Assembly: GCA_023251075.1 (NCBI GenBank)
Contig: JAHEZM010000008.1
Location: forward strand, 1-64,000
Reading direction: 5' to 3'
Source: Flavobacteriales bacterium
Lineage (GTDB): Bacteria; Bacteroidota; Bacteroidia; Flavobacteriales_C; GCA-002722245
DNA: 64,000 bases
The first letter of the stretch is position 1. Each line of letters starts with the position of its first letter. Below are positions 20,323-54,084 of this stretch, one piece after another. Position numbers and translations under genes: made by a program. Below the pieces are notes generated by a model. It was not told where the DNA came from, made no database searches, and saw nothing but the letters and a program-made list of their open reading frames with translations.

Positions 20323-20331
20323 CTCCTCATT

Positions 20332-20405: not shown

Positions 20406-20408
20406 CTT

Positions 20409-20535: not shown

Positions 20536-20554
20536 AGTTTCAATATAAAAGCAA

Positions 20555-21388: not shown

Positions 21389-21489
21389 ACCCGTTACGAA
21401 TTGTCACGTTTTAAATATTGATCTTGCAGTCCGGACAGGAATATCTTTAATCTTAGCTGCTCTAACAGAATTAATAATGGTCCTTTTTC

Positions 21490-22492: not shown

Positions 22493-25400
22493 TTATTCAG
22501 ATCTCGTAAATTCAAACACCTGATTACTCATTTCATCACCATCTTTGTAAATAGTTTCTTCTATCTCAATGCTCATTTTTTGTGCTTCTTGTTGGGCTTG
22601 TTTTACTTCTTCACTTTGGAAACATTGAGCATCTAAATAATTCACTCCTGTTAAATCTCCAAACAACCAACGTCCGTCTCTGTTGTCGTTAACATATTGT
22701 CCTACCGATATCAATACCCCTTCTTCATTGTATTCTTTCCACCAGCCTGTTCTTTTGCCGTTGAGTAAATTTCCTTCCTCTTTCACTTTTCCGTGTGCAT
22801 CAAAAAGCTTTAAAGAACCCGTTCCGTTTTTCACTAAAGTGTCGCCCGATTCCGATAAAAATGTTTTGTAGGTTCCCACAAAATCACTTTCCTGAATGTC
22901 GGTTGCGCAGTTTAATCGAACGTCTTCGTAATTTAAAATGCCAATGTATTTTGTTTTTCCATTGTCGTAAAATGCTTCGTATTCAGCCACACCGCTTACG
23001 GTATCAGTTCCAAAAACCAAATCTACGGTGTCTTTAAAATTCAATGATGCTACTTTTCTCCCCACCGTGTTGTAGTAAGTCCACATACCTGTTTTGTTCA
23101 TGTATTTGTAATGATATCCATCGCCGCTATCCACTTTCATAATCATTCTTCCGTTGGCGTAATTTTTACCATTAGGATGAAATACTGTTACTTCGCCGGT
23201 GAACGCCAATTCTTCCGACCATTTATTCAATAATTCTTTTTCGTCAATGTAGGCATATCTATCATAAACAACTCCGCTGTCTACTTTTATTTCCAAACGC
23301 AAAGTATTGTAGCTGTCTTTTAAAGTGATATCGCCTAACAATTTCCCTTCGTGAAAATGCACTGTCATTTTATGATCAAACATGGCTGATTCTCTATCGT
23401 AATACTCGCGGAAATAAACTCCTTCTTTTTTTCCATTTACAAAAAATGCTTTGGCGATGGTATCGTGTAAATCGGTAGTTACGAAAAGCGGACCTTCTTT
23501 TTTCCCATTCTGATAATTCACAAATAGCTTATAGGCACCGTCGGTATGGTACTCAATATTATCACCATGCAATTGTCCTTTTGAGTTATACACCTTTAGC
23601 TCATACATACCGCCATTACTCATAAATTCTTTTGCCGTATCGGTAGGTAAACCATTGGTGAAATGTTGTTCTTTCGACAAGAAATAAGCCTTACTACCTT
23701 TTAAAGAGGTGGTTCTATAAGAACGTGAATCCCACTGGCGAGCAGTGCCATTGTACAAGCCATCTTTCACAGGAATTTCAAATGCCAATCGAAATTTTTT
23801 GATCCCGCTATTCCCTTTTGATTTTTCATAGCCTTTAACAACGCCCTGTGCTTTGTTGTTTTTGAAAGTATAAATATTGTGATATTTATACCCTTTGCTT
23901 TCAAGCCTTTCCATTTGTCCGTTCACAAATTTTGCTTTTATTTTTCCGCCACCATAATAACGTTCAATTAAACTCAGGTGAGCATTTCTATCATAAGTGA
24001 GTACCTCATTTTTAATTTTAAAAGCTTCTTTTCCATTGCCACGAATTACTTTAACTTCTCCGGTAAAAGGTTTTCCATCAACGTACAAACGCAACGAATC
24101 CATATCCTTTATGGAATAGTCGTAACTGTGTCCCGAAATAGCATGTGCCGACGTTACACGCAGCAAAGGTGTTTCATTGGTGTCGTTATGATAATAGCCG
24201 TGCACTGCCACTCTGCCAAATTCTGCAACGCGCACATATTGATAGGCACTATCGAAAGTAATTACCCTACTGTATTTTCGGTACCCTGTTGCGCTATCGG
24301 TTCGGTGCACAAATTTTTTATCATTGAAATTCGGACAAACAAAAACAGAATCGAGAACTCCATATTCACTTTCTATAGAAAAAAGAAAAAGAGAATCTTT
24401 TCTTTTTTTATTGAAATCCTCTTCGAAGAAATAACTATAGTTGGCAAAATCGGTTTGCATTTTTCCGTTTTCTAAATAATCATTTCTGTATTTTCTATAA
24501 ACCCCCGCTGAATCGGTGATGTAATATTTTTGAGAAAAAAGGGTGCGATTCGGTTTATAAATATCCAATCGATAACGAGAATGGTTCACCGTATCGGGCA
24601 AAGGAATTTTAACAAGAGCCGGACGGCCCAGCGGATTGTACAAAGTATCGAATTGCATGGCATCTTCATCATTTTCCGAATAAGCAGAAAATTTCCCTAA
24701 CAACTCTCCATTGTAATGATAAATTTTAAAAGGAACAACTTCGGGATACGAATAAGAACGATAATCATCATAGGAATAATCGTAAATATTTTCATTGGAA
24801 TAAATGTGACGAAGACGCATATTTCTTCTATGCTTTCTCCATTCTTTTTTAGTAAAAATGCGCTGATCTTCGAATTGAGCGGTATCGTAGAGAAAAGTAT
24901 TCATTGATAAAATCCACGGACTTTCATTACCGATAGTGGTTGCAGAATCGGCATATGCTTCCAATTCAATTTGTCCGTTCTCATGATACCTTTTGTAATA
25001 TTTTTCAAAACTGTCGCCTAATTTGTAATATTCTAATTCTACATCACCATTTACATAAAATGTTTTTTGCAGCCCTTCTTCAACACCATTGTTGTACCAA
25101 TTCATTGAGCTCAGGTAAGGTTTTTGAGATTTAGTAAGAGGATCGTAATACTTACTGATATAAAGCCATTCACCGTGTTTTAATCCATTGTGAAAATTTC
25201 CTTCGCGCGTTTTTTTGCCTTGGTAATCGAAGTAAACCACTTTGCCGTTTAGTTTTCCGCTATCTACTCTAAACTCTGCTCCTATCATAGGTTTTAGCGT
25301 TCCTCTTCTTTTTTTCCAACGATTTCTCCAAGTGTTCTTTGCTGCGTGCAACATTACATAATCGCCCGTGGGTAAAGAATCCAACACAGGAGGAATTTCA

Positions 25401-25567: not shown

Positions 25568-25599
25568 AGTAAAAAATAAGTTGAACATCCTTGCCGTAT

Positions 25600-25631
25600 C
25601 AAACTTACTAGTTTTCGGGGGAAGAGCCAAA
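25600..25631 (-). promoter_or_regulatory. Promoter of P10
   Basis: On the minus strand TTTG (25631-25628), 20 nt, then TAAGTTTG (25607-25600): both elements of the Bacteroidota housekeeping promoter. The ATG at 25567 follows 32 nt later. It indicates that P10 has its own transcript and fixes the start codon. Confidence 0.65.
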
Positions 25632-25666
25632 AAGGGATTAATAAATTGATTTGACATAAAGGGCGG

Positions 25667-25760
25667 TAGTTCCTTCGTGCCTCAGGATGACAAACACCCC
25701 TAAATACAGAGTGAGAGTGAGTTTTGAGAGCGATTGTCATCCTGAGGCACGAAGGAACTA
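25667..25760. repeat. Palindromic intergenic element, copy A
   Basis: Perfect 27-bp arms (25667-25693 and 25734-25760, core TTCCTTCGTGCCTCAGGATG) flank a 40-base centre with AGTGAGAGTGAGTTTTGAGAG. Same family as copies at 41187 and 59088; relative to those it is in the opposite orientation judged by its centre. Fills the gap between P9 and P10. Confidence 0.92.
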
Positions 25761-25778
25761 TTGTCCTACACTTACTAT

Positions 25779-28700
25779 TTATTTACCTCTATCAATGTTA
25801 TAAGTATTAGAAGAAATCATTTTTCCTTTGTCGTAGAAAAACTCTATGATGCTAATTTTCAATTTCACTTCCTCCTGTTCTACAACTTTTTCTTGTTCCG
25901 ATTCGAAGCATTTATCATCTAAATAGTTTATTCCGGTGAGATCGCCTTGCAGCCATCTCCCGTGTTTTAATCCCTCTTTATACTGCCCCACCTGTATTAA
26001 TTTTCCTTCTTTGTTGTACTTTTTCCACCACCCTTCGGGTAATTTGTTTTTCACCTCTCCTTCATATTCTAACAGGCCATCTCTGTAAAACACTGCTACT
26101 TTTCCATTTCCGTTTTTCACCAAAGTATCACCTTGTTCATTGATGTAAGTTTTGTAATTCACCTCAAAAGCCTGCTCTTTTAAATCGCTAACACAATCTT
26201 GTTCATCATACTCATCCACTAATTGGCCTTCGTATTTTAAATTGCCATTCGAATAAAATTCAATGAAATCAGCTGAAAGAGAATCCTCTAAAGGATAATT
26301 AATTTCATTGATCTTTTTTCCCACGGAATTGTAATATTTCCACAAACCAAATTTTCTGCATTTATCATCATAGCTTGCTTTTCTTCCGTCTAATAAAACA
26401 CTCCCTGTGCAATACAAATTACCATTCGAATGATACAAGGATACTCTTCCACTCACAGCCATTTCTTGCCATTCATTAAAGTGAAAGTAATGCCAACTTC
26501 TATTTCCATAAGCTTCAAAAGAACGAAGCACTTCCATCTTCAATCTTGTTACATTGTATTTGTCTTTGTAAATAAACGGCCCCACCATGGTATCATTTTT
26601 AAAATAATTGGTTAGGTGAAAAGAAGGAAAATAATCACTGCTACTCACTTCATGAAGCTCTAATAATCCGTCTGCTTTATCTTCAATAAAACGAATTCTC
26701 GAAGTATCGCCATATTCATTAATCTTTATTTGCCATCCATGTTTTAAGCCATGTTTATATTCTTTAGTGGCTTTAAGGTCTCCCTCATAGCTTATTGCTA
26801 CACCATGTAATTTGCCCTTTTCATCATGAGGATACGTTGAAGGGCGTGAATTAGGAAAATAATAATAAAATGAAGTGTCGACGAAATGATTGTCTTTGTA
26901 ATAATCAGCCTCTGCTAAATACCATTTATTCTTATTGCTGTAATCCTGATCCCATCTTTCACGCTTTCCGTTTTTCAATCCATTTTCATATTCGGTATAA
27001 TAATTTAGTATTCTGGTTTTAAATAAACCTAAATGCACCTTTTCAAAATACACCTGATCTCTGCCGTGAAGCAAATTATTTTTAAAATCCATTTGTCGCA
27101 TTTCCTTCCCTAATTCTGTATTTACTTCACCATAAAATTTAATGCGTTCTACATTTCCCTCATTGAGTTTTAAATACATTTGAACACAAGGCAGCTTTTT
27201 TTCCTGTCGCCATCTGTAACCAAAAGGTTTATACTCAACAATTAATTTATTATCCTGTAAGCTTGCCCCTAAATTTTTACCGTCATCAAATTGCACATAC
27301 ATATCACCCGTATAAGGTTTGTTTTCGTAGAATACTTTTATAGAATCCAGTTGATTCCACCCTGCACCCACCAAATAAATTTGTTTGTTGCGCCATACAT
27401 CTTCCATTATTCCATCGCTCGATAAAACACTTCCTAAACGCACACCGTTAGTGTTGTTCCAGTTAGAGTAATAAGAAACTACTTTTAAATCGCCACAACG
27501 TTTTACATAATAGTAAGCATAATTTTCTCCGCCTTGGATGATGTGTAAATCGATGGTGCTTTTTCCCGGACACAAATCCTGATCAACAGTAAATGTTCTA
27601 TTAGGAATTAATGGGGAATAATATTCTTTCTTTTTGTCACTGCCAGGTATAGTTCGCAAATAGATCAAAGTATCTTTCAATAAATATGCACTGTCTTTAT
27701 TGAAGAAGTAGCTATAATCTTCAAATCTTGAATACACTTTACCTCCTCTGAAATAATTTATCTGCTCATATTTTTGAAAAAATCCTGTTGAATCTTTTAC
27801 ATAATAAGCAATGGCATGAAAAGAGGAATCTTTTGCGTAAGAACGCCATTGATAACGTTGTAAGCCTATGGAGTCAGGCATATTTTGTCGTACCACCGCA
27901 GGCTGACCCTTATAGCCGAACAGCGTATCACCCAAAGCAATATACATGTACGTACTGTTGTATTGAAAAGGTGTTTTTTCATGGCATTGAAACCTGCCAA
28001 AAAAATTTCCATTATCATGATACACATTAAAAGGTACATCTACAGGCACTGAACAGTGCATTGCCGGGTGATATCCTGAAATAGTAACTTTTAAAGTTCG
28101 CAAATATTTTTTTCTAAAAACTCTATTGAAGGAAGTGTTGTGTTTTTTAAAATCGATTTTAAGTTGCACTAATTTTTGTTCTGTTGAATCGTGATAATCG
28201 CTATAAATACTTTCACTCCAATAGGCATTAGTAAATACTCTTCCTTTTATTGCAGAATCCATTTTTATCTGCACTTTTCCGTTATCATGAAATAAGGTGT
28301 AGTGCGAAACAGAATCATTTTTTTCCTGAAAAAATTCCGATTTTAAAACGAAAGCACTATCCGCTTTTCTTTTATAATAACGATGCCAACCTTCTTCTAC
28401 ACCATCCATAAAATTCGACTCTGTTAAACTTTTTTGATTAAAATAATATTCTTTCCAAACACCATTTCTCACCCCATTTAAATAAGTCCCTGTAGCTTTT
28501 ATTGTTGCATCCGAAAAATAAAAAATAGCTGATCCGTTCAATTTTCCTTTTTCAATATTTATTCTGGCTGCTATATGTTCATTTCTCTTTCTCCGGCTTT
28601 TTTCTATTTTTTTCATACTTTCCGGAAAAGCCCATAAAACAAGATATTCCCCACTAGGGAGTGAATCTAAAACAGGAGTAATTTCAGATCTGTTACGAGT

Positions 28701-28886
28701 GTAAAAAACAGGATCTTCATCTTGCATATAAAATAAGGAAGACCGACTTCCTTCTACTTCAATTTTGTAAGGATAAACCAAATTTATCTTTCCATTTATA
28801 AGAAGGGTATCGACTTTTAAATTTTGAGAAAAGGCACTAAATGCTTGAAAAAATAAGAGTGTAAAAAGTATTTTTTTGAAACACAT
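25779..28886 (-). CDS. MORN-repeat secreted paralog P9
   Basis: 1035 residues from MCFKKILFTL (28886), which yields a signal peptide ending AFSQ. The frame remains open to 29084 through an inserted palindromic element; using that start would bury the signal peptide, so I reject it. Family parts: NLVYPYKI, ITPVLDSLPSGEYLVLW (about 80-100), MORN repeats (YLNGVRNGVWKEYYF), YHDNGNFFGRF, FYENKPYTGDM, and the C-terminal module GDTLVKNGNGKV, GWWKKYNKEGKLIQVGQY, GRWLQGDLTGINYLDDKCFESE. Its N-terminus is closest to P10. Role unknown; surface or periplasmic protein inferred from the signal peptide. Confidence 0.9.
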   Translation of the reverse strand: MCFKKILFTLLFFQAFSAFSQNLKVDTLLINGKINLVYPYKIEVEGSRSSLFYMQDEDPVFYTRNRSEITPVLDSLPSGEYLVLWAFPESMKKIEKSRRKRNEHIAARINIEKGKLNGSAIFYFSDATIKATGTYLNGVRNGVWKEYYFNQKSLTESNFMDGVEEGWHRYYKRKADSAFVLKSEFFQEKNDSVSHYTLFHDNGKVQIKMDSAIKGRVFTNAYWSESIYSDYHDSTEQKLVQLKIDFKKHNTSFNRVFRKKYLRTLKVTISGYHPAMHCSVPVDVPFNVYHDNGNFFGRFQCHEKTPFQYNSTYMYIALGDTLFGYKGQPAVVRQNMPDSIGLQRYQWRSYAKDSSFHAIAYYVKDSTGFFQKYEQINYFRGGKVYSRFEDYSYFFNKDSAYLLKDTLIYLRTIPGSDKKKEYYSPLIPNRTFTVDQDLCPGKSTIDLHIIQGGENYAYYYVKRCGDLKVVSYYSNWNNTNGVRLGSVLSSDGIMEDVWRNKQIYLVGAGWNQLDSIKVFYENKPYTGDMYVQFDDGKNLGASLQDNKLIVEYKPFGYRWRQEKKLPCVQMYLKLNEGNVERIKFYGEVNTELGKEMRQMDFKNNLLHGRDQVYFEKVHLGLFKTRILNYYTEYENGLKNGKRERWDQDYSNKNKWYLAEADYYKDNHFVDTSFYYYFPNSRPSTYPHDEKGKLHGVAISYEGDLKATKEYKHGLKHGWQIKINEYGDTSRIRFIEDKADGLLELHEVSSSDYFPSFHLTNYFKNDTMVGPFIYKDKYNVTRLKMEVLRSFEAYGNRSWHYFHFNEWQEMAVSGRVSLYHSNGNLYCTGSVLLDGRKASYDDKCRKFGLWKYYNSVGKKINEINYPLEDSLSADFIEFYSNGNLKYEGQLVDEYDEQDCVSDLKEQAFEVNYKTYINEQGDTLVKNGNGKVAVFYRDGLLEYEGEVKNKLPEGWWKKYNKEGKLIQVGQYKEGLKHGRWLQGDLTGINYLDDKCFESEQEKVVEQEEVKLKISIIEFFYDKGKMISSNTYNIDRGK

Positions 28887-28896
28887 ATTAAAACGC

Positions 28897-29048
28897 CTCT
28901 CTCCCACTTTCTCCTCGGAGGAGGAGAGTGCAATTTTGCTTGCGCCAGAGGAAGAGGATGGATCAAGTTTATTGTTTATAAAATCCATCCTCTTCCCATC
29001 GCTAAAAACCTTTACACACTCTCCTCCTCCGAGGAGAAAGTGGAAGAG
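28897..29048. repeat. CTCCTCGGAGGAGGAG palindromic element
   Basis: Outer arms of about 32 bases (28897-28930 and 29017-29048, core CACTTTCTCCTCGGAGGAGG) and inner perfect 14-base arms (28950-28963 and 28983-28996, GGAAGAGGATGGAT). MITE-like shape with no coding capacity of its own. It lies between P8 and P9, eight codons after an ATG that looks like a former start of P9. Confidence 0.88.
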
Positions 29049-29073
29049 ATTACTCATCATTATTTTTCTCATG

Positions 29074-32000
29074 TTAATTTCCACTGCGTTTAAAAGAGAA
29101 ATATCTTATTCTCATCATTCTTCCATCTTCAAATAATTCTTCCCTTATTTGTATGTCAAACTTGTTTTCTTCTTGTTCCATTAAACGCGCTTCTTCATCT
29201 TTAAAACATTTATCGTCTAAATAATTAATGCCGGTTAAATCTCCATACAACCATCTTCCTTCTTTTTTTCCATTCATATATTTTCCTACACTTACTAAAA
29301 TCCCTTCCCTGTTATACCCTTTCCACCAGCCATTTTCCTGATTTGAATCTAAGCGTCCTTCTTCCAATAAATAACCATTTACGTCATACACTTTCAAATA
29401 ACCTGTTCCGTTTTTAACGATAGTATCCCCCTTTGGAGATAAGTATAAATCGTACAACAAATTGAATTTGATGGGGTGTAATTTTTCTTCACATTCTACA
29501 ATTGCGTCCTCGCTGTATAATTGTCCTTTGTATTTCAATTTTCCACTGGTATAATATTCTGTTACATCACCATTAGTGTATGCTGTTGTATTTTTAACTG
29601 GTACACTTTTGCCAAAATAATTTACCTCAGCCACTTTATTTCCCAACACATCAAAATACTGCCATTTTCCTTTTTTATAATAGAAATCAACACCATCATT
29701 GTACTGACCAGCGGAGTGAAAATTATTGATTTCTCCTTCGCTATACAACAAATTATTGGCGCGAAACATTTTGCAATATGCCTTCAATCGTACGTCGTGC
29801 CAAATTTTATAATCCCCTCCCTCAATATCTCCAATATCGCTCCAATGAACGGTATCCGATTCTGAAATAAAAAGATGCAACAAAGTATCTGCCCCCTTAG
29901 TCATTAAAACAAAATCACCCTTTAATCTTCCATTCACCGCATTTCCTTTTACAACATAATTAATAAATGAATTATCCAGATAGTTATAAGTAGTAAACCT
30001 TCTTTCAAAAGGTCCGTGCAAAACATCATCTTTATAATATGCAATAGTATTGGTATCTAAAAAGCCGTGCAAGCTATAATAAAAACCTTCCTGAACTCCA
30101 TGATTGTAAAAACTTTCTGAAGTACAAAGTCCGCGAGTAAAAGATTTTTGAGAACCATGTAATTTCCCATTCATATCATAATTATCCACCGACTCTAATT
30201 GCTGATCGTAATCATAACTCAACGATGTTCCTACAATAGTTCCTTTAATGTAGGTGTTAAATGATTGGGGAGATCTATCAGAAAACTGTTCTTCAAAAAC
30301 GCCATGCTTTAAACCATACCAATAATTTTCTGTTTTATCTTTTAGCGTAACCCAAGATAGTTTCTTCTTTTTCCAAAAAGGGCGCCAATACATTCTTCTG
30401 GGGCGATATTCATAATCATTGAAAAAATTATTTATCTCCTCCAATGCTGATTCGGTATACAATACATTTCCATGTACCACATTATTTTCAAAAGGATAAT
30501 AATTTGATTTTCTAACGTGATATACTTTCTTTTTTAAATCGTAATAATTCACCTGACGGTAATATTTTACCTCTCCGTTAACAAAAGATATTTCTGCCGT
30601 ATCACTTTCATTTATTGAGGATGTAGTACAAATAATTAACGTGTCATTAACCGTAAAACGATCCTCTGCATTTTTTGCATTCACTAAAAATAATTTTCCC
30701 GAAAAAGGTTTGTTTTTATAATACACTTTTATAGAATCACTTCGATTAATCACCTCTAAAAGAAGGGCTTCACTTCGATATAAAAAGGAAGGAAAACCCA
30801 TCCTTTCTTCTTTTTTATCAAAAGATGAAAAGTGAGCTACAATCTTTATATCACCAGCATTTAAAGATTTTTGATATTGTTTGTTTTTGCCGAAAACCAA
30901 AACTTTAAAATCAACAGAATATTGTCCTTGCAATTCATTAACCCTATCAAAATTTCCTGTGTTATTGTTACAGTAATATGTTGTTCTTACATTGGAGTAA
31001 CGCAAGGACGTATCGATTTTTACAACATAACAACTATCTCTTTTGTGTTTTAAAGGATCGTAATTCGGATCTAAACGATTGCTAACAACATGCAAAACGC
31101 CATCTGTTTTTAATTCATCGTATCGATACTCTTCTATTTGATTAATTTTAGAACTAATAAAATAACGCGATGAATAATGCACTCCATTTTTATCGTACAA
31201 GTGAAATACAAATCGTTTTTCTCCCAAAGTATCGCTAAGTGTTTTTTTAATTACTACAGCACGACCAACAAAATTATACAAAGTATCAAAATCCCATGCA
31301 GCATTATAATTCCAGCTATTTTGGCTCGAAGAAATTTTACCTAACAATTGACCATTGGGATGATAAAAATTAAAAGGATGTTGATCAGAGGGTGTTTGAT
31401 AATTAAACTTTAATTCTCCTTTTTTAATTTGAAGTTTTCCTTTTATTTCCCCAACAGTATAACCTATTGGATAAGTAAAATAACCCGACGGACCTTTCGC
31501 CGAAAGCGAAACGGCTGTGTCGCTATACGATTCTATCATCAATTGTCCGTTAGGATAATAGCCCTTGTAATATTTCGAAAATTTATAGGTGCTTTCCTGA
31601 AAGTATTCCAAGGCTAAAAAATAATTTTCACCCAACATCTCATACTTTTTATGCATACCATAAGGTATTCCTTTTTTATAACTCAACACCTCTTTTATTT
31701 TTCCACTTGAAAAATAGGTGTTCCACTCACCTTCCTCTAAACCATTAGTAAATTTGCCCTTTTCAAATAAAATACCCCGCCTATCGTAATAAGTCATATC
31801 ACCATCCAATACTCCATTCTTAATTGAAAAATAGGCACGTACTGTTTTTTTAATCTTTTGCTTTTTTCGCTTCCAGCTATATTTCGATTGCATCAACACA
31901 TAATCCCCATCATTAAGAGAATCTATAACGGGTGGAAGTTCAAAATGAGAAATCAACTTTGGTGTATCATCACCCTGATACTCCGCAAAAACATAAGGAT

Positions 32001-41169: not shown

Positions 41170-41186
41170 TTGATAAATTGATTTAC

Positions 41187-41294
41187 AGGACGATAGTTCC
41201 TTCGTGCCTCAGGATGACAGTAATTCTCAAAACTCACTCTCACTATGCACTTGAGAGTGGTTGTCATCCTGAGGCACGAAGGAACTATTGTCCT
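41187..41294. repeat. Palindromic intergenic element, copy B
   Basis: 33-bp arms with one mismatch (41187-41219 and 41262-41294) carry the TTCCTTCGTGCCTCAGGATGACA core. The centre (CTCAAAACTCACTCTCACTATGCACT) matches that of copies A and C. It fills the only gap between P4 and P5. Confidence 0.92.
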
Positions 41295-41331
41295 ACTTAT
41301 TAATACCATTTCCCCCATTCGTTACAATCTC

Positions 41332-44300: not shown

Positions 44301-44754
44301 GATTTTTCTTTTTATTCTTCTTGGTAATCGTTGGATTTTTCAAGAGCACATAGGTTCCTGTAGGCAATGAATCGAGCACTGGAGGAATGCCAGAATTAGG
44401 ACGGTAAATTCCATCTCTTACACCAATGTAATCAGCAGCAACAGCCGAATCAGCATAAGGGTAAGCTTCTTCGCTATATTCACTATAATCTACTTTCTTT
44501 TTAAACAGCCTTTTAAAAGAAAATCGACGGAGACGATTTTCACGTTCCTCCTGCAAATAATCAGCATCGGCTTCAAAGCGATAAGGATATACTAAATATT
44601 TTATGTCTTTGTATTCAAAGGTATCGATCACTGATTTTTGTATTTGAAAAGGGGCGTCGAAATAACTTTCTTCTACTGCTACGCTATCCATCATTTCATT
44701 TTGTGCCTGTGCACCTAGCGCACAAAACATTAATCCTAAAAGTAATTTTCTCAT
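41332..44754 (-). CDS. MORN-repeat secreted paralog P4 (longest)
   Basis: 1140 residues, the longest copy. Signal peptide MRKLLLGLMF...AQAQ. An acidic, tyrosine-rich insertion (about 65-125, EERENRLRRFSFKRLFKKK and YSEEAYPYADSAV) separates KYLVYPYRF from IPPVLDSLPTGTYVLLKN. MORN repeats follow (FVNGSKNGEWKEYDYCDCSNE), then YYNNGNVYGRF, LYKDEKPFSGNL, a very basic stretch (KKKRKKSKDKVKM, about 690), a serine- and tyrosine-rich insertion near 930 and the module GDVMVKNGNGTLQTY, GWWKEYSKEGKIIAAGKY, GRWLYGDLTGINFLDDRCFESEE, YSFTRSE. Overlaps P3 by four bases. Resembles P2 and P3 in its signal peptide (KLLLG). Confidence 0.9.
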   Translation of the reverse strand: MRKLLLGLMFCALGAQAQNEMMDSVAVEESYFDAPFQIQKSVIDTFEYKDIKYLVYPYRFEADADYLQEERENRLRRFSFKRLFKKKVDYSEYSEEAYPYADSAVAADYIGVRDGIYRPNSGIPPVLDSLPTGTYVLLKNPTITKKNKKKNPQPIVLAIFKIDRGLLNGEAYFLDSEGYKTQEGIFVNGSKNGEWKEYDYCDCSNEKNEKKYLEKHYTYEKYTSTESYVKGVLQGPYKIYSCDNEHVYLQEEGEYSDGRKHGKIKEYEWNGTTSYVVAEYEALYGEYTNYYISYHRNGNIETKVIAPDSVFSVERRQLPYVNINPTPRLVKKKGNTSYYEGVFVLNNVSVPTGVPFVVYYNNGNVYGRFKKCTSHYGDDSYSFDTLFNEKGIAKVFKIALSDTLNKKRYSIVELDSNNLLGDKTNYVETSAGSYSVYESYGNLGGKKLQVISANYELLMPENWRKTSKDTLVLTRIYEETKRKGRTYYNTILEKEFKKTVDLKYNFSTDFEVSSHEPYHEQYSDILNYENLKLVVYHSRDTMPHHAKQITPQKYLQKFYGYGHYDTKNYSDSLVLYKDEKPFSGNLSIQFKLGSKIVKTSSNKIEINLTPIAKAKSVRKWKRKMRGLLRSYVVIEFKDGSATYIKGKINEGRKSIKGYAELKNSMPHGKVFAIQKKKRKKSKDKVKMLRGSMYEGMPHGKMYEYEANKKGKLYLKEIETYYMGEKRDTSFKYREDGKIKRFVVYDSLGKEVIECAYFKDGKIRELNDNRVIEGRPTFSYTLGEKGDTTTFSTKMNGKLNGLSYYTTFDEERKISTGDLSVHYKDDKPQGKLVFRDGWGTKRLELNIDSCYEEHEFSSGDVYDILKRWENSPSFIFAGKVKMFHPAGRTYCEGQMAYEIIYPSLDSTKIEPVEEFRGPEDPYDESWRYKSSSENGAYAERYKTGVWTYHDPAGIMIAEVDYSDTTDLILGMDTTRGIAGYKAFYDNGKLRYEGRLIDEDEMEDCESDLPEKDFEVYYKTYIAKNGDVMVKNGNGTLQTYYINEMLRYEGDLLNGRKNGWWKEYSKEGKIIAAGKYINGDKHGRWLYGDLTGINFLDDRCFESEEKKQKIQEMIKYNLEIEEEVYDHGVLVNRQTYSFTRSE

Positions 44755-47700
44755 TTTGCCATTTCATTATTCATTAATTCTAAAGCCGGAGTTTCATCAG
44801 GTGTGACTTCAGGCACATTAAATTCTCCTTCTTCAATAATTGTTTTTCCGTCTTCGTCGTAGTTCACGTATTTGCCATAAGGTTCATGATTTCTAACCTG
44901 AAATTCTTGTTGCAAATTGCCATTGGGATAAAATACTTGAACTTTTCCATTTCCGTTTTTCAACTGATTAATTCCCTGTGCATTGTTGTAAGCAGAAAAA
45001 AGTATGTCGAAATTTATTTGCGGCACTCCCTTAATCTCTGTACCCATATCATACTCGCTTTCCAATAATCCTTCATATTTTATTTTTCCATTGCTATAGT
45101 ATTCTTTGTAATAGCCTGATCCAATTCTATCCCCCATTTTGTAATCTTCCCTATACAATACTTCGCTTTCTAATTTTCCGGCTGCGGTGTAATATTTCCA
45201 GATACCCGTTTTGTACATTCCATAATTGTAAATTCTTTTCTTTACAGCTTCAAGAGCTGGTACTACCGCTGGCTCAGTATATTCCACAGATCTGGTAGAA
45301 TCCATTACAGCAATGTCCTCCTCAATATACGCTTCTGCTTTTACAGTATCGGCCACTGCATAATCCCCATAATCTAACGATAAAGCTGGTTCCGATGGAT
45401 CATAACTATACTGCCCCGAACAATACATTATACCTTCTGCGGTGTAATATTTTACTTTTCCGGCAATAGTCATTTTCGATTGCCAATTGCTGATAAATGT
45501 AACCGGACCATAGGATCTCATATCCAATACATAGGGCTCATCATAATAAGCGCCTCTATATCCATTTGTACTCATTGCCGAATCAATTTGCAACACCACT
45601 CTTTTTTTATTCGAGGGATCATACAGTGTTAATGTTCCTGTAGGTTCATCATTTTTATGTTGCCCATACAACTTATAGCTTCCTTCTTCATTTTGTTCCA
45701 TTTGCATGAAAGCGCCTTCCCTGCTTCCGTTTTTATAAGTTTCAAATCCGAGAGTATCTCCGCCTTCTGTAAGCGTGTAAGCCACACCGTGAAGTTTACC
45801 ATCATAGTAATTTGAAACAGCTTGTTTGCTTCCATTTTCATAGTAAAAAATAGTAGTTCCTTCTCTTTTTCCTGATTTATTAAAAACCTCTACTTCCTTC
45901 AGCGCTCCATTGTATCCATAATAATAGCTCGTATCACATTTTTCACCATTACAATACATAAAATCATGTTCAACAATGGTTTTATTATAATCTTTTGAAT
46001 ACTGTTTTTCAATGGAATGACCGTTTAGCAAACCATTGACATAATTCTCTTCTTTGATTTCACTACTTCTTAAATTTCCTTCTTTGTCTACACGTTCTTT
46101 TGAAGTAATCATTTTACCATGCACTTTACCATTTTTTAATTCGATATGTGCTGTTGCTATTTTTTTTCTTTCATACAATTTTGCTTCTAGCAATTGAGGA
46201 TCGCCATTTACAATTACCAATTTGGCGTACGAATTTTTTATAGTTTGTAATTCTTTTGCAAATTCAGCATCGTCTCCTTTTCTTTTTTTCTTCTTCTCCA
46301 ATTGTTGTTGAAGCGGTTCATAGGCCATAAGATCAATCAAAACAGATTGGTTGGTTACTTTCAGCAATTGCTTACCATCACCCATCATTGCGCTGATATC
46401 TCCGGTAAATAATTTGTTTTGAAAATAAACCCTAACCGAATCGTTGTCGTTATTTTTTCTTCTAAGCATAGAACTTTTTGCGTTCAATACAGAAGCCACA
46501 GTGGTTTCGCGCTTCTCTTCACGAGTATTTTTTAAAGTATTGTAAAACACCACCTTAATATCTCCAGCCTGAAAAACATTGTTGTAAACCAATTCTTCTT
46601 TTCCAATTTTCTTAATCTCAAAATCTAAACGGAAAAGATTTTTCTCTTCTGTAAGTCGAACAAATTCTCTTCCTTTTTTCGATGGAATGATATAGGTGTA
46701 AACTTTATTTCCTTCTTTAATCGCAAAGGATTTAAGAAGCAATGAATCAACATTTACGGCACTTTCACCATAGGATCCACTCGCTTGTATAAAAGGTTCG
46801 AAGTTGGCGTAGGTCCATTGCAATTTTCCTTTTTTATCTACTTCCCATCTCTCATAAATATAATCGCCTGTATAAGATTCTACCTTTTTTAATTTCCCTT
46901 TTTCCGAATAATAACTCATGTTATATCTCTTCAATCCCAGTGTATCAGAAAGCATGGATTTAGCAACACCTTTTTTTCCATTTGGGTGATAGAGGATATC
47001 GAAAGTAACATTCGACATATACCCTTCCTCATTCGTGATTTTAGAGAAATTGCCTACCAATCTTCCGTTCTCATAATAAGCTTTACATTCGCCTTCCATT
47101 GGCATTTGTAGCGCATAAAAATTGTATTTTACATCTTCTTCCGACACCTGATTGACATAATCTTCCGTTATAATTAAAGGCAATTTCCCCTTAATATCGA
47201 AACGCAATTTTCCATTGCAATAAAACTCCTGATAAGTACCTGTTTCTGAATTTTGAACTCCGTAAACTTTTTGTAAATAAATCTTTTTGCTTTCATCACA
47301 GTAAGCAAAATATTTGTAATTATTTCCTTGCTGACCATAAATATATTCGCCTTCTTCACTAACATAAGTTTTGCCGTTAACACTAGCATGACGCACTACT
47401 TTCCCGTGCAATACACCCATATCATAAGTTTCTTCATCGAGAGTATTATCTAAACAATCAACACATCTGGTTGTCCACAAACCCGTTTTCTCTCCGTTAA
47501 CGTAGGCACCTGTTTTAGCAATTTGACCCGACTCATCATAAAAAGTGGCAAATCCTTGCGGGTTACTATTTTCTATAGTAAACTCTGCACGAACTATTCT
47601 GTTTTCGGTAGTTCCATTCTCCTGCAAAATCACATACTTACCATCCGGAAGATTTTGATAAACATAAGGAATATTCATCTGCCAACTTTCATCATAAGCA

Positions 47701-48014
47701 TAAGAATAGTCGACCGCTGCCAACGAGTCAATATCAATACTTTTTTGATCACCTCCATCAGAATCTCCCGAAACAGCCGTAGCATCATAATAAGTAGCTG
47801 GCACTAAATAAGGATAAATAAAATACATTTCATTATGGTATAACATTGAATCCAGCACCCCATATTCATAGGCATCCTCCTCTCCATCAGAATAGTTTGA
47901 TTCCTGAACTGCAGAAGTATCTGGTGCATAATCGTAATTCTCAATTCCTCTAATATCTTGTGCAAATAAATTTGTTGCGCTCAATACAGTAATTCCTAAT
48001 AGTAGTTTTTTCAT
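44751..48014 (-). CDS. MORN-repeat secreted paralog P3 (lacks the C-terminal module)
   Basis: 1087 residues. Signal peptide MKKLLLGITVLSATNLFAQ, then a long acidic tyrosine/aspartate-rich N-terminal segment, YFIYPYLVP, IPYVYQNLPDGKYVILQE (a changed PPVLDSLP motif), MORN repeats (YVNGEKTGLWTTRCVDC), YYENGRLVGNF, FDILYHPNGKKG, VYFQNKLFTGDI and a second repeat group. It keeps LKNGNGKVQVFYPNGNL but ends soon after: the GRWLxGDLxGINYLDxxCF module present in the other nine copies is missing and the tail is VPEVTPDETPALELMNNEMAK-like. The stop still overlaps the P4 start by four bases, so the loss is not a simple recent truncation. Confidence 0.9.
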   Translation of the reverse strand: MKKLLLGITVLSATNLFAQDIRGIENYDYAPDTSAVQESNYSDGEEDAYEYGVLDSMLYHNEMYFIYPYLVPATYYDATAVSGDSDGGDQKSIDIDSLAAVDYSYAYDESWQMNIPYVYQNLPDGKYVILQENGTTENRIVRAEFTIENSNPQGFATFYDESGQIAKTGAYVNGEKTGLWTTRCVDCLDNTLDEETYDMGVLHGKVVRHASVNGKTYVSEEGEYIYGQQGNNYKYFAYCDESKKIYLQKVYGVQNSETGTYQEFYCNGKLRFDIKGKLPLIITEDYVNQVSEEDVKYNFYALQMPMEGECKAYYENGRLVGNFSKITNEEGYMSNVTFDILYHPNGKKGVAKSMLSDTLGLKRYNMSYYSEKGKLKKVESYTGDYIYERWEVDKKGKLQWTYANFEPFIQASGSYGESAVNVDSLLLKSFAIKEGNKVYTYIIPSKKGREFVRLTEEKNLFRLDFEIKKIGKEELVYNNVFQAGDIKVVFYNTLKNTREEKRETTVASVLNAKSSMLRRKNNDNDSVRVYFQNKLFTGDISAMMGDGKQLLKVTNQSVLIDLMAYEPLQQQLEKKKKRKGDDAEFAKELQTIKNSYAKLVIVNGDPQLLEAKLYERKKIATAHIELKNGKVHGKMITSKERVDKEGNLRSSEIKEENYVNGLLNGHSIEKQYSKDYNKTIVEHDFMYCNGEKCDTSYYYGYNGALKEVEVFNKSGKREGTTIFYYENGSKQAVSNYYDGKLHGVAYTLTEGGDTLGFETYKNGSREGAFMQMEQNEEGSYKLYGQHKNDEPTGTLTLYDPSNKKRVVLQIDSAMSTNGYRGAYYDEPYVLDMRSYGPVTFISNWQSKMTIAGKVKYYTAEGIMYCSGQYSYDPSEPALSLDYGDYAVADTVKAEAYIEEDIAVMDSTRSVEYTEPAVVPALEAVKKRIYNYGMYKTGIWKYYTAAGKLESEVLYREDYKMGDRIGSGYYKEYYSNGKIKYEGLLESEYDMGTEIKGVPQINFDILFSAYNNAQGINQLKNGNGKVQVFYPNGNLQQEFQVRNHEPYGKYVNYDEDGKTIIEEGEFNVPEVTPDETPALELMNNEMAK

Positions 48015-51000
48015 TATTTTTTTCTTTTAAATGTATAGTCTCTTGAGCTTATTTCGTCTCCTTTTGTATTGTAAACTGTTTCTTTAATTTCAATGATATT
48101 TTGATTTTCTTCGATATATTCTTTCTCCTCTTCCATACTTTCAAAACAGCGCTCATCGAGGTAATTAATACCTTCTAAATCTCCTTCCAGCCAACGGCCC
48201 ACTTTATTTCCTAAAACATATTTTCCCACTCTACACAATTGTTCGGCTTTATTATATTCTTTAAACCACCCGTCCTTATTTCCATTTACAACTTTTATCT
48301 CATAGCGCAGCAATCCATTAGAATGAATTATTTTTAACAATCCCGTTCCGTTCTTTACAATATAAATTCCTTCCGGCGACAAATAATCCTTCACTACCAA
48401 ATCGTAATCTATTTCTGGTAAATCGCTCTCACACTCAGTTATTGCCGTTTCTGAAATTACTATTCCTGAATATTTTAATTTTCCGGAAGGATAGTATTCT
48501 TCGTATAAAGCTTGGCCTGATAAAACATTATTTTTTGTAATGGTTAATACTTGCGAACCATACCTTGTATCATCATAAATTATTTTTTTAGCAACATTCC
48601 CTTCTATATCATAGTACTTCCACACACCCATTTTAAACATATCATAAGAATACAATGTATCGGCTTTTGTTTTAAAGGCAGAATTGTCCTCCGCCATATC
48701 CAGCGCTAGATGTGAAAAATCATTCTCTGTTTCATAACTAATACTTGTAGAGTAATTTGTTCTTCCAATACAATACAGTTTACCGTTTGGATAATATATT
48801 TTTATTGTTCCTGCTACTTTAAAATTCGATTCCCAATTTTGCAGAAATCCTTTTTGTATTCCAGGATACTGTTCAACAAAATCAGAACTATCAATTTTGA
48901 TTTCTAAACGTTTTATTCCACTTGCATCATAGCACTCCACCACATCCGCCAACTTTCCTTTTTTATAATGAGCCAACATTTTTATCCCTTTGCTTTGCGA
49001 ATTTTCTTCTATAGCAACAAAAATCCCCGCCCCTTCCAACAGCCCTTTTGTATAATTGTACTTCGCAAGTGTATCTCCCTCTCTACTTAATGTATAACTC
49101 AACCCTTCTTCTATACCATGAAAATAATTTTTTACCTCTTTTGCTTGTGAATCGCGCATGAAAGTAGTTTGTTCTCCATGTTGTTTCCCATCGATATCAT
49201 AAACAAATATTTCAGAAAGATCACCCGATTTATTGTACTTAAAACAAGTATCTTTCTTTATTCCGAAATAATAATTTTCATCTTTTTTCAAGAACATCTT
49301 TTGTGTTTTCTTATTTAATTTCCACTCGCGCATTCTGCCATGTGGCAAGCCCTCAAAAAATTCTGCTTCTATTTTTCCGCCTTCTTTTAATTGCCCTGTA
49401 ATGTCTTGTTTCATAGATATTTCACCTGTTAGCAAACCATGGGGCAAGGTGTTTTTAAATTCGCAATGTGCTTTTCCGTTTATCAAAGCGCCTTCTATTT
49501 TAACATCAAGGGTTTTAATATCTCCTTTCTTACATAAAAATATTATGGAAGATTTTTCCATATCTACTCCACCCTTCATAAAAAACTCTTCTCCTTTTAA
49601 AGGGCGCAAATTCACATATAGTATTTTATCTTGCTTTTTTGTAATATAATTTTCGTTGGATGCCGTAAGATGAATTTCACCGGTGAAAGGCAAATCCTTG
49701 TAGTAAAAAACCATAGAATCTAATCGATTTTTCAAATTCCCATTCAAATTATGTAGTGCTTTCCCCATCAAACTAAATGGAGTTTTGCGCAACATTGCTT
49801 TAGGATTTTTATCTCTGGAGGTGTATGTAATAATTTTTATATCATCGAATTTTTGTGTGGTTTGGTATGCATAATTCAACGTGTCGAATGAATCAATAGT
49901 AAAATCCATACTAATCATTTTGCCTTCTGTTTTTTCAAACTTTTGCATATTTAAAATCGGACTCACATAAGTATAATTTTTTGCAATGCTGTCGCACCTA
50001 ACCCATAGTAAAATCAGGCTGTCTCGTGAATTAATTAAATTTTTAAGCGGTGAGATCAAACTATAATTTGCAAATTGAATTTCCAATTTTTCATTGGTTT
50101 TGTTTTTAAATTCATAAGCCTGCCACCCCGCATACAAATCACTTGTTTGAAGATATAATATCTGCTTGTTTAAATTTCCTTCCTCATCAAAAAATCTAAT
50201 CCGCATTCTTTTCAATTCCAAAGTATCACTCATGGCATCTTGAATAGAAAACTTTTTTCCATTAGAATGATAAATTGTGTCGTAATGAATAGTGTTAATT
50301 GACGTTTTACTGGAGTATGTAAATTTTCCAAAAAGCTTTCCATTAGAGTAATAACAAGTAAAAGGAACTCTCTCTGGAATTTCTCCTATTTCTTCCAATT
50401 CTTTTAAATGGCAGTATTCCAAATGACCCGAACTGTAATTTGTTACCCTTATAAAATTATTCTTTGCATAATCCTCAGGTTTAATTTCCAATCGAATTTG
50501 TTTATTAGGGTAATAATGCGTGTATTTTTCTATCAAAATACCTTCCTTTCCACCCAAAGCTTCTTTTTGCAGATATGATTTCCCCTCAGCGCTTACGCCA
50601 TAAACCTTTAGATTTGCCTCGCCTTTCATATTGGAAAGAAATATACCCTCTTCCTTCAAATACACTTTATTATTCACGCACTGAAATTCTTTATACGCAC
50701 CATTTTTCGCGCCATCTTTATATTGATATTCATTCACCAATTCACAATCTCCTTCAAAAATATGATGAGTCCACAATCCATTTTTTAATCCTTTTAAATA
50801 CGTTCCTTTTGATTGCGTTTTTCCGTCATTATAGAAAGTTTCGCAATTACCATTAATAACTCCTTTGGCTACATTAAAATGAGCCCTAACCAGGGAATCT
50901 TTTTCTAACAAAACATATTTACCTGAAGGCAAAGAATCATAATAGGGAGGGATTTCCACTTCTTTTTCTTTCTCAACAATAGGCGCAGGCACAAAATCAT

Positions 51001-51178
51001 CATAAACAGGAGCCAAATTATCAACCCAATCTTTCTCCACTTCTTCCAACGCAAAAGGATAAACAAAACATTTTTCGCCTTTAAAATCAATAATTTTTAA
51101 TTGTATTGTTGCTCTTGTGCTTTGTGCAAATAAATTAACTGTACTAAATAAAATAATTCCCAGTAGTAGTTTTTTCAT
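48014..51178 (-). CDS. MORN-repeat secreted paralog P2
   Basis: 1054 residues. Signal peptide MKKLLLGIILFSTVNLFAQ is nearly that of P3. Family parts: EKCFVYPFAL, IPPYYDSLPSGKYVLLEK (about 75-95), MORN repeats (YLKGLKNGLWTHHIFEGDCE, CETFYNDGKTQSKG), YYSNGKLFGKF, IYHSNGKKFSI, FYYKDLPFTGEI near 500, and the C-terminal module IVKNGTGLLKI, GWFKEYNKAEQLCRVGKY, GRWLEGDLEGINYLDERCFESMEEEK, YTFKRKK. The stop and start codons overlap by one base on both sides (TAATG), an arrangement shared only by P1-P2 and P2-P3 in the array. Confidence 0.9.
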   Translation of the reverse strand: MKKLLLGIILFSTVNLFAQSTRATIQLKIIDFKGEKCFVYPFALEEVEKDWVDNLAPVYDDFVPAPIVEKEKEVEIPPYYDSLPSGKYVLLEKDSLVRAHFNVAKGVINGNCETFYNDGKTQSKGTYLKGLKNGLWTHHIFEGDCELVNEYQYKDGAKNGAYKEFQCVNNKVYLKEEGIFLSNMKGEANLKVYGVSAEGKSYLQKEALGGKEGILIEKYTHYYPNKQIRLEIKPEDYAKNNFIRVTNYSSGHLEYCHLKELEEIGEIPERVPFTCYYSNGKLFGKFTYSSKTSINTIHYDTIYHSNGKKFSIQDAMSDTLELKRMRIRFFDEEGNLNKQILYLQTSDLYAGWQAYEFKNKTNEKLEIQFANYSLISPLKNLINSRDSLILLWVRCDSIAKNYTYVSPILNMQKFEKTEGKMISMDFTIDSFDTLNYAYQTTQKFDDIKIITYTSRDKNPKAMLRKTPFSLMGKALHNLNGNLKNRLDSMVFYYKDLPFTGEIHLTASNENYITKKQDKILYVNLRPLKGEEFFMKGGVDMEKSSIIFLCKKGDIKTLDVKIEGALINGKAHCEFKNTLPHGLLTGEISMKQDITGQLKEGGKIEAEFFEGLPHGRMREWKLNKKTQKMFLKKDENYYFGIKKDTCFKYNKSGDLSEIFVYDIDGKQHGEQTTFMRDSQAKEVKNYFHGIEEGLSYTLSREGDTLAKYNYTKGLLEGAGIFVAIEENSQSKGIKMLAHYKKGKLADVVECYDASGIKRLEIKIDSSDFVEQYPGIQKGFLQNWESNFKVAGTIKIYYPNGKLYCIGRTNYSTSISYETENDFSHLALDMAEDNSAFKTKADTLYSYDMFKMGVWKYYDIEGNVAKKIIYDDTRYGSQVLTITKNNVLSGQALYEEYYPSGKLKYSGIVISETAITECESDLPEIDYDLVVKDYLSPEGIYIVKNGTGLLKIIHSNGLLRYEIKVVNGNKDGWFKEYNKAEQLCRVGKYVLGNKVGRWLEGDLEGINYLDERCFESMEEEKEYIEENQNIIEIKETVYNTKGDEISSRDYTFKRKK

Positions 51179-54084
51179 TATTTTTTTCTTTTTACCTGAT
51201 AAGTTTTTTGATTTACAATATTTCCTTTTGAATAAAATATTTCTTCGATTTCAATATTGTTGATTTCCTCTTGCTGCTGAATTTGTTGGGCTTCCGCCGA
51301 TTCAAAACAGTTTTCAGCGAGGTAATTGATACCCGTAAGATCGCCTTTGAGCCATCTGCCTTCCGGTAATCCTTCTTCATATTTTCCAACGCAAATCAAT
51401 GTTCCTTTTTTATTGTATTCTTTCCAAATATTGGTTTTGATTCCATCTTTTAATTCCCCTTCAAAATGCAAAAGTCCATTGGAATAAAACAATTCGATTT
51501 TTCCATTTCCATTTTTCACCAAAGTATCTCCATTGGCGTTAATGAAATAATCGTAATACACGTCACTCTCATCTTCCAAAAATTCCGATTCACAATCTTT
51601 TTCAAAAGCTAGTTCGCTCCACTTTCCTTTATACTTCAATGTTCCAGAAGGGTAATATTCCTCATAAGTTGAAGCAATAAAATTAATCTTTTTCCTTGTT
51701 CTTCCATCGGAATAATAATAAGCCCATGTTCCTACCGGAAATTTTTCCCATGCACCACCATAAGTATTTTGAACATACTTATGCGAAATATTGCCTTCAA
51801 AATATACTTTTCCGTTGGGGTAAAACTGCTTTACATTTCCCGTAAAATAAGGCAGATGCCATAAATTAGTAAGTACCCCATCAAAATATTCATATTCAGT
51901 CATCACCTCACATTTTTCAGCTGCCACCTGCATTCTAATATTACCCACAACATCCTTAACCACTAAAGTTTTCATTCTACCGCTATCAGCCTGCATCCAA
52001 TAAGTATAGATAGGTTTGTCGTTGAAATTTTCATCTTTTCTATAATAAGCACCATCCAATAATTCATATATGTAATTTTTCTTTTCCAGTGTATCTCCAC
52101 TTTCCGACAAGCGGCAATACGGTCCATGATGTACGCCGTTTTTGTAAAAACAACTACTTGCTATATTGCCATTGTCATGATAATATATTTCAGCTCCGTC
52201 TTCTTCGCCAGCGATGTAATTTGTTCTGAATATGCACTTCCCCTCGTAGTTGTATTCTGTCCATTCCCCTTCCAATAAACCATGTTTGTAATACCTTTTT
52301 GATTCAATTTTTTTTCCCCAATAGTTTACGCTTTCTCCCTCTAAATAACCATTTTCATAAGCGCGTTGAAAAATGATTTTTTTTCTTGAAAAACCAGTTT
52401 CTTTTCCGTGAACCAGATGGTTTTTAATATTTGTTTCGTAATCAAAGTGACGATCTTCCTCCACTAAATCATAAAAGGAAATTTTGGTGATGCTTCCATT
52501 CACAATTTCAATCTTCGACACCTGATCACTCCGCCACCAATCTTTTTCACCATAATCGTAATAAAGCTGTTTCTTCGTTGCTTTAAATAATCCGCGTTCA
52601 GAAACTTTGTACAAATTCAAAACCCCTGTATAAGGTTTGTTTTGATAGTGGAAAAACATTGAATCCAGCATCTGGCTTTCCAATTGACTTAAAAAACAGG
52701 TGTCGTTTAAATACTCATAATCTATCCCTTGAAATGCTGCTCCTTCTGTATAAAATCCCTCTTCTTCCTTTCCGGTTCTAAATTCTAAATCTCGAAAATG
52801 AGCTATGATCTTTAACTCGCCTTCTTCAATGGTATCAACACAATAAAATGGCTTGCCTGAGTTTTGAATACAAAAGTTTTTCCTTCTGTTGCCGTGTAAA
52901 TATTTTTGTAAAAGCCGGTCGTGACCACTCCAAATATAAGTTGAATCATACTCCTTTTCATTTTTACTAACCCGCCATAAAATCAACGAATCACCAGGAA
53001 TAGCATGGTCATCATATCGCTGAAAATGTTCTTGGGTAAAGTACGAACAGTAGGATTTTCCATTTTTCAGAAAAGTTATTTCCTTATGTAAATGTGTTTC
53101 GCTCTCACTATCTTTTATAAAATATTTGTCCTTAACCCGCTCGCCAGAATCATCATAACAATGATAAACGAAATGTCGAATTTTAAAGGTGTCGGCAAGG
53201 TTTTCTTTAATTACTGCAACCCTTCCGTTTAAATGAAACAAAGTATCAAAATCAACGGCTGCTGCTTCCATCCAATCATTCAAATAATCGTTAAACACAA
53301 CAAAGTTGTAGAAATTTCCTAATGGCTGACCATTGGGATAATACACTTTAAAACCAATATTTCGGGGATGATCTCCGCCTAGCAAATCAGAAAAATTTTC
53401 TTCTGGTTTAAACAATTCCTCAAAGTCGTACAATCTCAGTGGTTCATTATAAACCGCTACAGAGGTATCGCTAAAAAACTCAATTTTCTTTTGCTGATTT
53501 TCATGGAAGGATTGATATTTATAAGCATAAAAACTAGCTTGTCTGGTAAAAGCTCCGGTTGGTTTTTGTTCACCATTCCATAAGTGAGAATAAACCGCTC
53601 CATTTGGCCAATACCATATTTCCTCGCCAAAAGGCAAACTATTGCGGTAGTAAATTTTATTCTGAATTCCGTTTTTATAATCTTTATTGTAAGTAATACT
53701 CAGCCCCTCTTTCATTCCGTTTTTATATTGTACACTTCCTATCGTATCTCCTTTCTCATCAAAATAAAAAACTTGCCCCTCAAGCGTGCTATTCACCATA
53801 TGAAAAGAAGCTCCCGTAATGGTTGCTATTTTTTTCTTTCCGGGATAAGGAGAACCATTCATTACATAATTTCCATCGGGTAATTTTTCTGTGATAGGTG
53901 GTACTTCTCCTAATTTTAAAAAGAAGCGCTTAGCATCATTCTGCTGTTCTTCCCACTGATACTGCAAAGGATAAACGAAATACTTGTTTCCATGAATAAG
54001 CGTAATTTCAGGGCGTTGAGATTGGGCATGAAGTTTAAAACAAAATGCTTGCAACACTAATAAAAAAAGTAAAATTGATCTCAT
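51178..54084 (-). CDS. MORN-repeat secreted paralog P1 (promoter-proximal)
   Basis: 968 residues from MRSILLFLLVLQAF (54084), which gives a signal peptide ending LHAQ; the frame is open 26 codons upstream but that stretch overlaps the likely promoter. Family parts: NKYFVYPLQY, VPPITEKLPDGNYVMNG (the most divergent N-terminal motif), MORN repeats (YKNGMKEGLSITYNKDYKNG), YYPNGQPLGNF, FHYQNKPYTGVL, a second repeat set (YKHGLLEGEWTEYNYEGK, YKNGVHHGPYCRLSESGDTL) and the module GDTLVKNGNGKIELFYSN, KEYNKKGTLICVGKY, GRWLKGDLTGINYLAENCFESAE, ending YQVKRKK. Its promoter region is shared, back to back, with the TonB receptor gene. Confidence 0.9.
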   Translation of the reverse strand: MRSILLFLLVLQAFCFKLHAQSQRPEITLIHGNKYFVYPLQYQWEEQQNDAKRFFLKLGEVPPITEKLPDGNYVMNGSPYPGKKKIATITGASFHMVNSTLEGQVFYFDEKGDTIGSVQYKNGMKEGLSITYNKDYKNGIQNKIYYRNSLPFGEEIWYWPNGAVYSHLWNGEQKPTGAFTRQASFYAYKYQSFHENQQKKIEFFSDTSVAVYNEPLRLYDFEELFKPEENFSDLLGGDHPRNIGFKVYYPNGQPLGNFYNFVVFNDYLNDWMEAAAVDFDTLFHLNGRVAVIKENLADTFKIRHFVYHCYDDSGERVKDKYFIKDSESETHLHKEITFLKNGKSYCSYFTQEHFQRYDDHAIPGDSLILWRVSKNEKEYDSTYIWSGHDRLLQKYLHGNRRKNFCIQNSGKPFYCVDTIEEGELKIIAHFRDLEFRTGKEEEGFYTEGAAFQGIDYEYLNDTCFLSQLESQMLDSMFFHYQNKPYTGVLNLYKVSERGLFKATKKQLYYDYGEKDWWRSDQVSKIEIVNGSITKISFYDLVEEDRHFDYETNIKNHLVHGKETGFSRKKIIFQRAYENGYLEGESVNYWGKKIESKRYYKHGLLEGEWTEYNYEGKCIFRTNYIAGEEDGAEIYYHDNGNIASSCFYKNGVHHGPYCRLSESGDTLEKKNYIYELLDGAYYRKDENFNDKPIYTYWMQADSGRMKTLVVKDVVGNIRMQVAAEKCEVMTEYEYFDGVLTNLWHLPYFTGNVKQFYPNGKVYFEGNISHKYVQNTYGGAWEKFPVGTWAYYYSDGRTRKKINFIASTYEEYYPSGTLKYKGKWSELAFEKDCESEFLEDESDVYYDYFINANGDTLVKNGNGKIELFYSNGLLHFEGELKDGIKTNIWKEYNKKGTLICVGKYEEGLPEGRWLKGDLTGINYLAENCFESAEAQQIQQQEEINNIEIEEIFYSKGNIVNQKTYQVKRKK

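Follow-up and report, generated by a model that had tools for sequence, protein, structure and literature searches.

What use does a bacterium have for ten adjacent genes that encode exported repeat proteins of about 1000 residues? This question is raised by a stretch of 64,000 nucleotides from an uncultured member of the Bacteroidia, which was analyzed as a whole and is called the window below. Ten adjacent MORN_2-type paralogs, all on the minus strand, fill positions 22493–54084 of the window, and we numbered them M1 to M10 in the order of transcription. With the start codons corrected, their products range from 968 aa (M1) to 1140 aa (M4). A previous, sequence-only reading of the window had described them as same-strand paralogs of this size range, and BLASTP confirmed the description: all pairs matched far beyond chance (E-values of 2e-14 to 7e-124), mostly over the full length. 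The identity was 23–30% over the full-length pair alignments; for one pair, it rose to 37% within the best local segment (137 aa).

The array consists of four blocks, the quartets M1–M4 and M5–M8 and the singletons M9 and M10, with strong palindromes between the blocks. Both quartets are translationally coupled, each start codon overlapping the preceding stop by 1 or 4 nt. In the first quartet, M1 (51178–54084) is followed by M2 (48014–51178, 1054 aa), which overlaps the M1 stop by 1 nt, M3 (44751–48014, 1087 aa), which overlaps the M2 stop by 1 nt, and M4 (41332–44754), which has a 4-nt (ATGA) overlap with M3, the stop codon of M3 itself overlapping the M4 start. The second quartet begins with M5 (38155–41169, 1004 aa) and continues with M6 (35090–38158, 1022 aa), M7 (32103–35093, 996 aa), and M8 (29074–32106, 1010 aa), each of which overlaps the preceding gene by 4 nt. 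The start of M9 (25779–28886, 1035 aa) was corrected to the ATG at 28886, and M10 (22493–25567, 1024 aa) starts at 25567. For M1, the ATG at 54084 was chosen over the TTG at 54162 because a −7 motif, TATATTTG (TAnnTTTG), lies 26 nt upstream of it; this motif is of the Bacteroidetes type.

The palindromes between the blocks are of two kinds. A near-perfect palindromic repeat of 108 nt occurs in the M4/M5 gap (41187–41294, predicted −69.6 kcal/mol) and in the M9/M10 gap (25660–25767, predicted −61.8 kcal/mol), with a further copy at 59081–59188. The M8/M9 gap holds a different palindrome of 152 nt (28898–29049), the 33-nt arms of which are 97% complementary (predicted −103.3 kcal/mol). The arms of the 108-nt repeat contain GTCATCCTGAGGCACGAAGGAAC, and its 23-nt arm had 44 matches in the genome (≤ 2 mismatches), mostly as inverted pairs, compared with 0 for the reversed control pattern. 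The 108-nt repeat is therefore a general dispersed element and is not specific to the array; it resembles REP or MITE elements. Beyond the array, a perfect 45-nt inverted repeat, with its arms 157 nt apart, lies at 56597–56843 between the genes for a TonB-dependent receptor and RNase R, and a perfect 26-nt inverted repeat is nested within it at 56661–56783.

The array proteins share a fixed order of elements: an export signal comes first, followed by a YP...LPxGxYV motif, hairpin repeats of the MORN_2 type, and a PFxG block. Nine of the ten copies also carry a C-terminal GRWLxGDLxGINYLD...C module, which M3 lacks. A YP near residue 36, a GxY near residues 68–70, and many of the repeat glycines are invariant. 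The N-terminal motif and the C-terminal module in nine copies had both been claimed before and were borne out by the alignment, as was the claim that the ends align more easily than the middle: the mean pair identity was 0.39 in N-terminal residues 1–40, 0.13–0.31 in the body, and 0.53 in residues 961–1000. The similarity thus extends beyond generic MORN repeats to end modules that can be aligned, and the copies are related to each other. Read from the sequence, every copy has a signal-peptide-like N-terminus ending near A-Q, and the lipobox cysteine that marks an outer-membrane lipoprotein is absent from the cleavage site in all ten. The C-terminal sorting domain of the type IX secretion system (T9SS; Por_Secre_tail or another model) was not found in the copies scanned; the genome itself encodes T9SS cargo.

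The array occupies a chromosomal slot with conserved flanks. On one side are the genes for a TonB-dependent receptor (54235–56571, plus strand), divergent from M1, and RNase R (56805–59057, plus strand). On the other side is a gene for a non-heme ferritin (8841–9362, minus strand), which adjoins the MORN slot in relatives and is separated from M10 in the window by an additional 13 kb containing a tRNA-Arg and other genes. The block of about 12 kb at 9906–22185, between the ferritin gene and the array, encodes the tRNA-Arg, a BRO-N protein, TPR and laminin-G/T9SS proteins, and an OmpA-like protein without a full-length ortholog in the genus. Farther out, at 4006–7938, a two-component-propeller protein is fused to a guanylate/adenylate cyclase and an HD-like domain; this gene is conserved with the slot in three relatives.

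The host genome (G000) was compared with four congeneric genomes: G001 (CAMBXP010000012.1), G002 (JAHEZL, Flavobacteriales bacterium nzgw150), G003, and G004. One MORN gene adjoins the divergent TonB receptor gene in G001, G002, and G004. The ferritin gene directly follows it in G001 and G002; in G004, no ferritin gene was found, and the next conserved gene is a small-protein gene. In the relatives, the order runs on through the small-protein gene to the propeller/cyclase gene, where the contig reaches that far. In G003, a genome with a completeness rating of 100%, a 242-kb contig carries the receptor gene and the ferritin gene at a distance of about 150 bp, and no MORN gene separates the two. 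Loss is the simplest reading, because G002 and G004, the nearest relatives of G003 by the flanking genes, both have the slot gene. The copy number at the slot is therefore 0, 1, 1, and 1 in the four congeneric genomes versus 10 in the window, all of them metagenome assemblies, which bears on the copy number of the array; these counts agree with the earlier claim of an expanded exported family and show that its copy number varies between close relatives. In the sister genus, no family member was detected at an E-value of 1e-20, and receptor and ferritin are encoded on separate contigs. Outside the slot, contig C2 of the host genome carries a further full copy (1111 aa), and contig C36 carries a short copy of 407 aa (L085:7698–8921), which ends just past the PFxG block and is possibly degraded. 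G002 has two further family members, which flank a gene for a TroA-like helical backbone metal receptor (L050:9595–16540).

All 16 family members of the genus formed a clade relative to the distant homologs described below (100/100). In the larger tree, M10 paired with the G001 slot gene (100/100), its ortholog; M1 paired with one of the two unlinked G002 copies (97/93). The single slot genes of G002 and G004 pair with each other. Because the genes of relatives fall among the array members, the array is not a single clade, and lineage-specific expansion from one gene was rejected as its sole history. The single slot genes are not all orthologous; therefore, the diversity of the repertoire is older than the species, and its members have been differentially kept or lost. 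M10 shares 50% identity with the slot gene of G001 and 37% with that of G002, although the host TonB receptor is about equally far from those of G001 (65%) and G002 (68%), which points to the differential retention of older paralogs and not to one ortholog per species. Fast evolution and long branches make the deeper branchings of these trees uncertain. A joining of the G002 and G004 single genes with M2–M4 (96/99 in one tree) was not recovered in the larger tree and was not relied on.

The slot gene evolves much faster than its neighbors. Between G002 and G004, it is 51% identical, compared with 76% for the TonB receptor, 87% for the cyclase, and 88% for RNase R. Codon identity at shared residues was 0.501 in the protein bodies, against 0.490 expected from codon usage, which means that these sites are saturated; in the N-terminal 72 residues it was 0.555, against 0.444 expected, a weak excess. 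Because the synonymous sites are saturated, recent recombination among the bodies is not supported, and recent gene conversion was rejected; the suggestion in the sequence-only reading that the array was possibly diversified by recombination is not supported as far as recent events are concerned. DNA similarity is kept only in junction and signal-peptide stretches (83% over 140 nt and 81% over 84 nt).

Such divergence might reflect relaxed constraint and not functional diversification, if the proteins were structural or housekeeping scaffolds of the cell envelope. Degenerate repeats generally evolve quickly, the saturation of the synonymous sites is too great for a test of positive selection, and MORN_2 proteins are ordinary in Bacteroidia, having been found in 88 of 99 sampled genomes. 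However, none of the ten copies has lost its open frame of about 1000 aa, and they keep the invariant glycines and the YP and LPxGxY motifs, with the end modules in nine, which needs selection on each copy. The range of the copy number at one slot, from 0 to 10, also argues against a structural or housekeeping role, which we consider unlikely.

The genes beside the slot suggest another function, in which the proteins would act with the TonB receptor in nutrient or metal capture, as ligand-binding partners at the surface or in the periplasm. In three relatives, the slot lies between the divergent receptor gene and a ferritin gene, and the gene flanked by the two other G002 copies also encodes a metal receptor. 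However, G003 keeps the receptor and ferritin genes without a MORN gene, these two genes are not linked on one contig in the sister genus, and copies elsewhere adjoin unrelated genes (for a PLP enzyme, TPR, chitinase, LRR, and AAA proteins). Ten divergent copies for one receptor are also hard to explain, and we regard a role in nutrient or metal capture as quite improbable.

The same architecture was found in four genomes from three other families of the class (G292, G256, G361, and G311), in proteins of 1032–1301 aa with about 20% identity. The distant homologs have in common the order of an N-terminal YP...LPxGxY/W motif, hairpins, an NG block, and a GxWLxGDL...C module. The YP and G68 were present in 22 of 22 aligned sequences and C982 in 21 of 22; the C-terminal module was the best conserved part in each distant comparison, and four independent comparisons showed conserved end modules with a variable middle. 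By the order of their motifs, the array proteins and the distant Bacteroidia homologs form a single family. The architecture occurs in at least 8 of 395 genomes, a lower bound, with two candidates scored per genome. Across 396 genomes drawn separately from the phylum, a search with the C-terminal module alone turned up no large relative beyond the host genome. Matches in another family, about 119 aa long, were set aside; the one that was translated is a small MORN protein that is exported and lacks the end module. The short MORN proteins L053–L056 (about 570 aa), which share the repeats and a GDTLVKNGNG motif and not the end modules, were likewise excluded. A phage origin was rejected, as no relative was found among viral contigs.

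G292 has an independent tandem trio of these genes (L117:7460–17296), separated from each other by 2 and 10 nt, beside an operon that includes genes for an AAA ATPase and DUF6638. The neighbors of the distant homologs, namely the AAA/DUF6638 genes, chitinase and LRR genes, and MarR and DUF4349 genes, have nothing in common with those of the array. The family is therefore old and occurs sparsely, and no partner gene accompanies it consistently. This bears on the possibility of a poly-immunity array, in which each exported immunity or antitoxin protein would neutralize a different competitor toxin, a role hinted at by the name YwqK family antitoxin. In Bacillus, YwqK is paired with the LXG toxin YwqJ (PMC8321402), and tandem, diversified paralogs with a variable copy number would fit orphan immunity arrays. 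However, neither a toxin gene nor an LXG, Rhs, or secretion gene was found beside any copy in the genus or in the distant families, about 1000 aa is an unusual length for immunity factors, and PADLOC matched none of its defense families to the 14 members scanned. An immunity function is therefore very unlikely.

The predicted secondary structure is a succession of strands of 6–12 residues with short turns, i.e., repeated two-stranded hairpins, and the model of the whole protein was a long β-hairpin ladder (pLDDT 77.6, pTM 0.50), with a pLDDT of about 80–94 over most repeats. The conserved end modules would cap this predicted ladder. The earlier assignment of the repeats to MORN_2 stood in part. 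It is supported by the predicted ladder, by the match of the SET7/9 MORN repeats to the sequence profile of the family, and by a structural match of the whole model to Plasmodium MORN1 in Foldseek, although the global superposition was poor. The Pfam MORN_2 model (PF07661), however, reached its gathering score in only four of the nine scanned copies, scored below the cut-off in two, and gave no match in three, and the array repeats are thus degenerate. A closed Rhs/teneurin-like β-hairpin shell enclosing something is highly improbable, even though Foldseek ranked RhsA, teneurin, and Tc-type shells highest for the whole model (E-values of 7e-14 to 3e-10), because TM-scores of 0.06–0.09 and an rmsd of about 40 Å indicate a local hairpin pattern only, the pTM of the model is low, and neither a YD/Rhs family match nor a C-terminal toxin domain was found. 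The middle segment in isolation was predicted confidently (pLDDT 82, pTM 0.76) and had no significant structural match in the PDB, and its identification as a known fold was rejected.

Based on these results, we propose, with slightly less than even confidence, that the array is a diversified repertoire of Sec-exported cell-envelope proteins, in which a repeat scaffold serves binding or recognition in an adhesin-like manner; a repertoire-type function as such is plausible. The proteins would be located in the periplasm or on the outer membrane, their variable hairpin faces would bind different partners, such as glycans, other cells, or matrix, and the birth and death of copies at the slot would adjust the repertoire. 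Two results count against this proposal: no T9SS sorting domain was found in the scanned copies, and the isolated middle segment had no significant PDB match. A more specific version, which seems doubtful to us, is that the slot is a dedicated repertoire locus, where the species of the genus draw on an ancestral, fast-evolving set and keep different members; the one lineage with ten copies, in palindrome-separated coupled blocks, would then have a recognition system of an undescribed kind, directed at a partner, kin, prey, or phage. The sequence-only reading had missed that the array is not a lineage-specific clade, that the slot gene evolves much faster than its neighbors, and that distant Bacteroidia have the same architecture. 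MORN_2 proteins are among the commonest uncharacterized exported proteins of Bacteroidia; even for those of Fusobacterium, which have been proposed as invasion factors, no function has been proved. The ten natural variants, together with an empty-site relative and single-copy relatives, form an unusually clean comparative set for finding MORN_2 ligands. If these are recognition proteins, they would represent a diversified repertoire based on one chromosomal slot, in a lineage that is free-living.

Among known systems, the eukaryotic MORN proteins (the N-terminal repeats of SET7/9 and Plasmodium MORN1) resemble the array in their repeat hairpin pattern, whereas the array proteins are bacterial and exported, lack a SET domain, and superpose poorly overall. 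YwqK, a small MORN_2-type protein, has repeats of the same type and is an antitoxin of the Bacillus LXG system. In contrast, the array proteins are exported, several times larger, and in tandem, and no toxin gene was found beside the array or its homologous loci, so the earlier view that they are not a YwqK-type toxin–antitoxin pair is upheld. The LIC20035 family adhesin (NCBIfam NF033566) also has a MORN_2-like repeat stretch, and LIC20035 of Leptospira is reported to be a surface-exposed, matrix-binding adhesin (PMC10927737). However, the model, with its 434 positions, is about half as long as the array proteins, which also have different end modules; it weakly touched 6 of 14 members, and not M2 or M3, with 26.4 bits for M7 over about 96 residues of generic repeats, far from the equivalog cut-off of 250 bits. 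The MORN2 (MORN_2) expansions of Fusobacterium are likewise exported repeat proteins with signal sequences that have expanded in number; they are described as being of unknown function and as suspected adhesins (PMC12940168; PMC10434195). Fusobacterium MORN2 proteins have been found in outer-membrane vesicles, and adhesion by them is stated as not proved (PMC10434195). The Fusobacterium and Leptospira proteins support an envelope-binding role for the array by analogy only. Compared with Fusobacterium, the host is an uncultured member of the Bacteroidia, no autotransporter gene lies near the array, and the ten proteins of about 1000 aa have a fixed architecture with conserved N- and C-terminal modules in one tandem slot. 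As MORN_2 expansions are already known in Fusobacterium, the array is best classed among the known MORN_2 proteins, as a large architecture that evolves fast.
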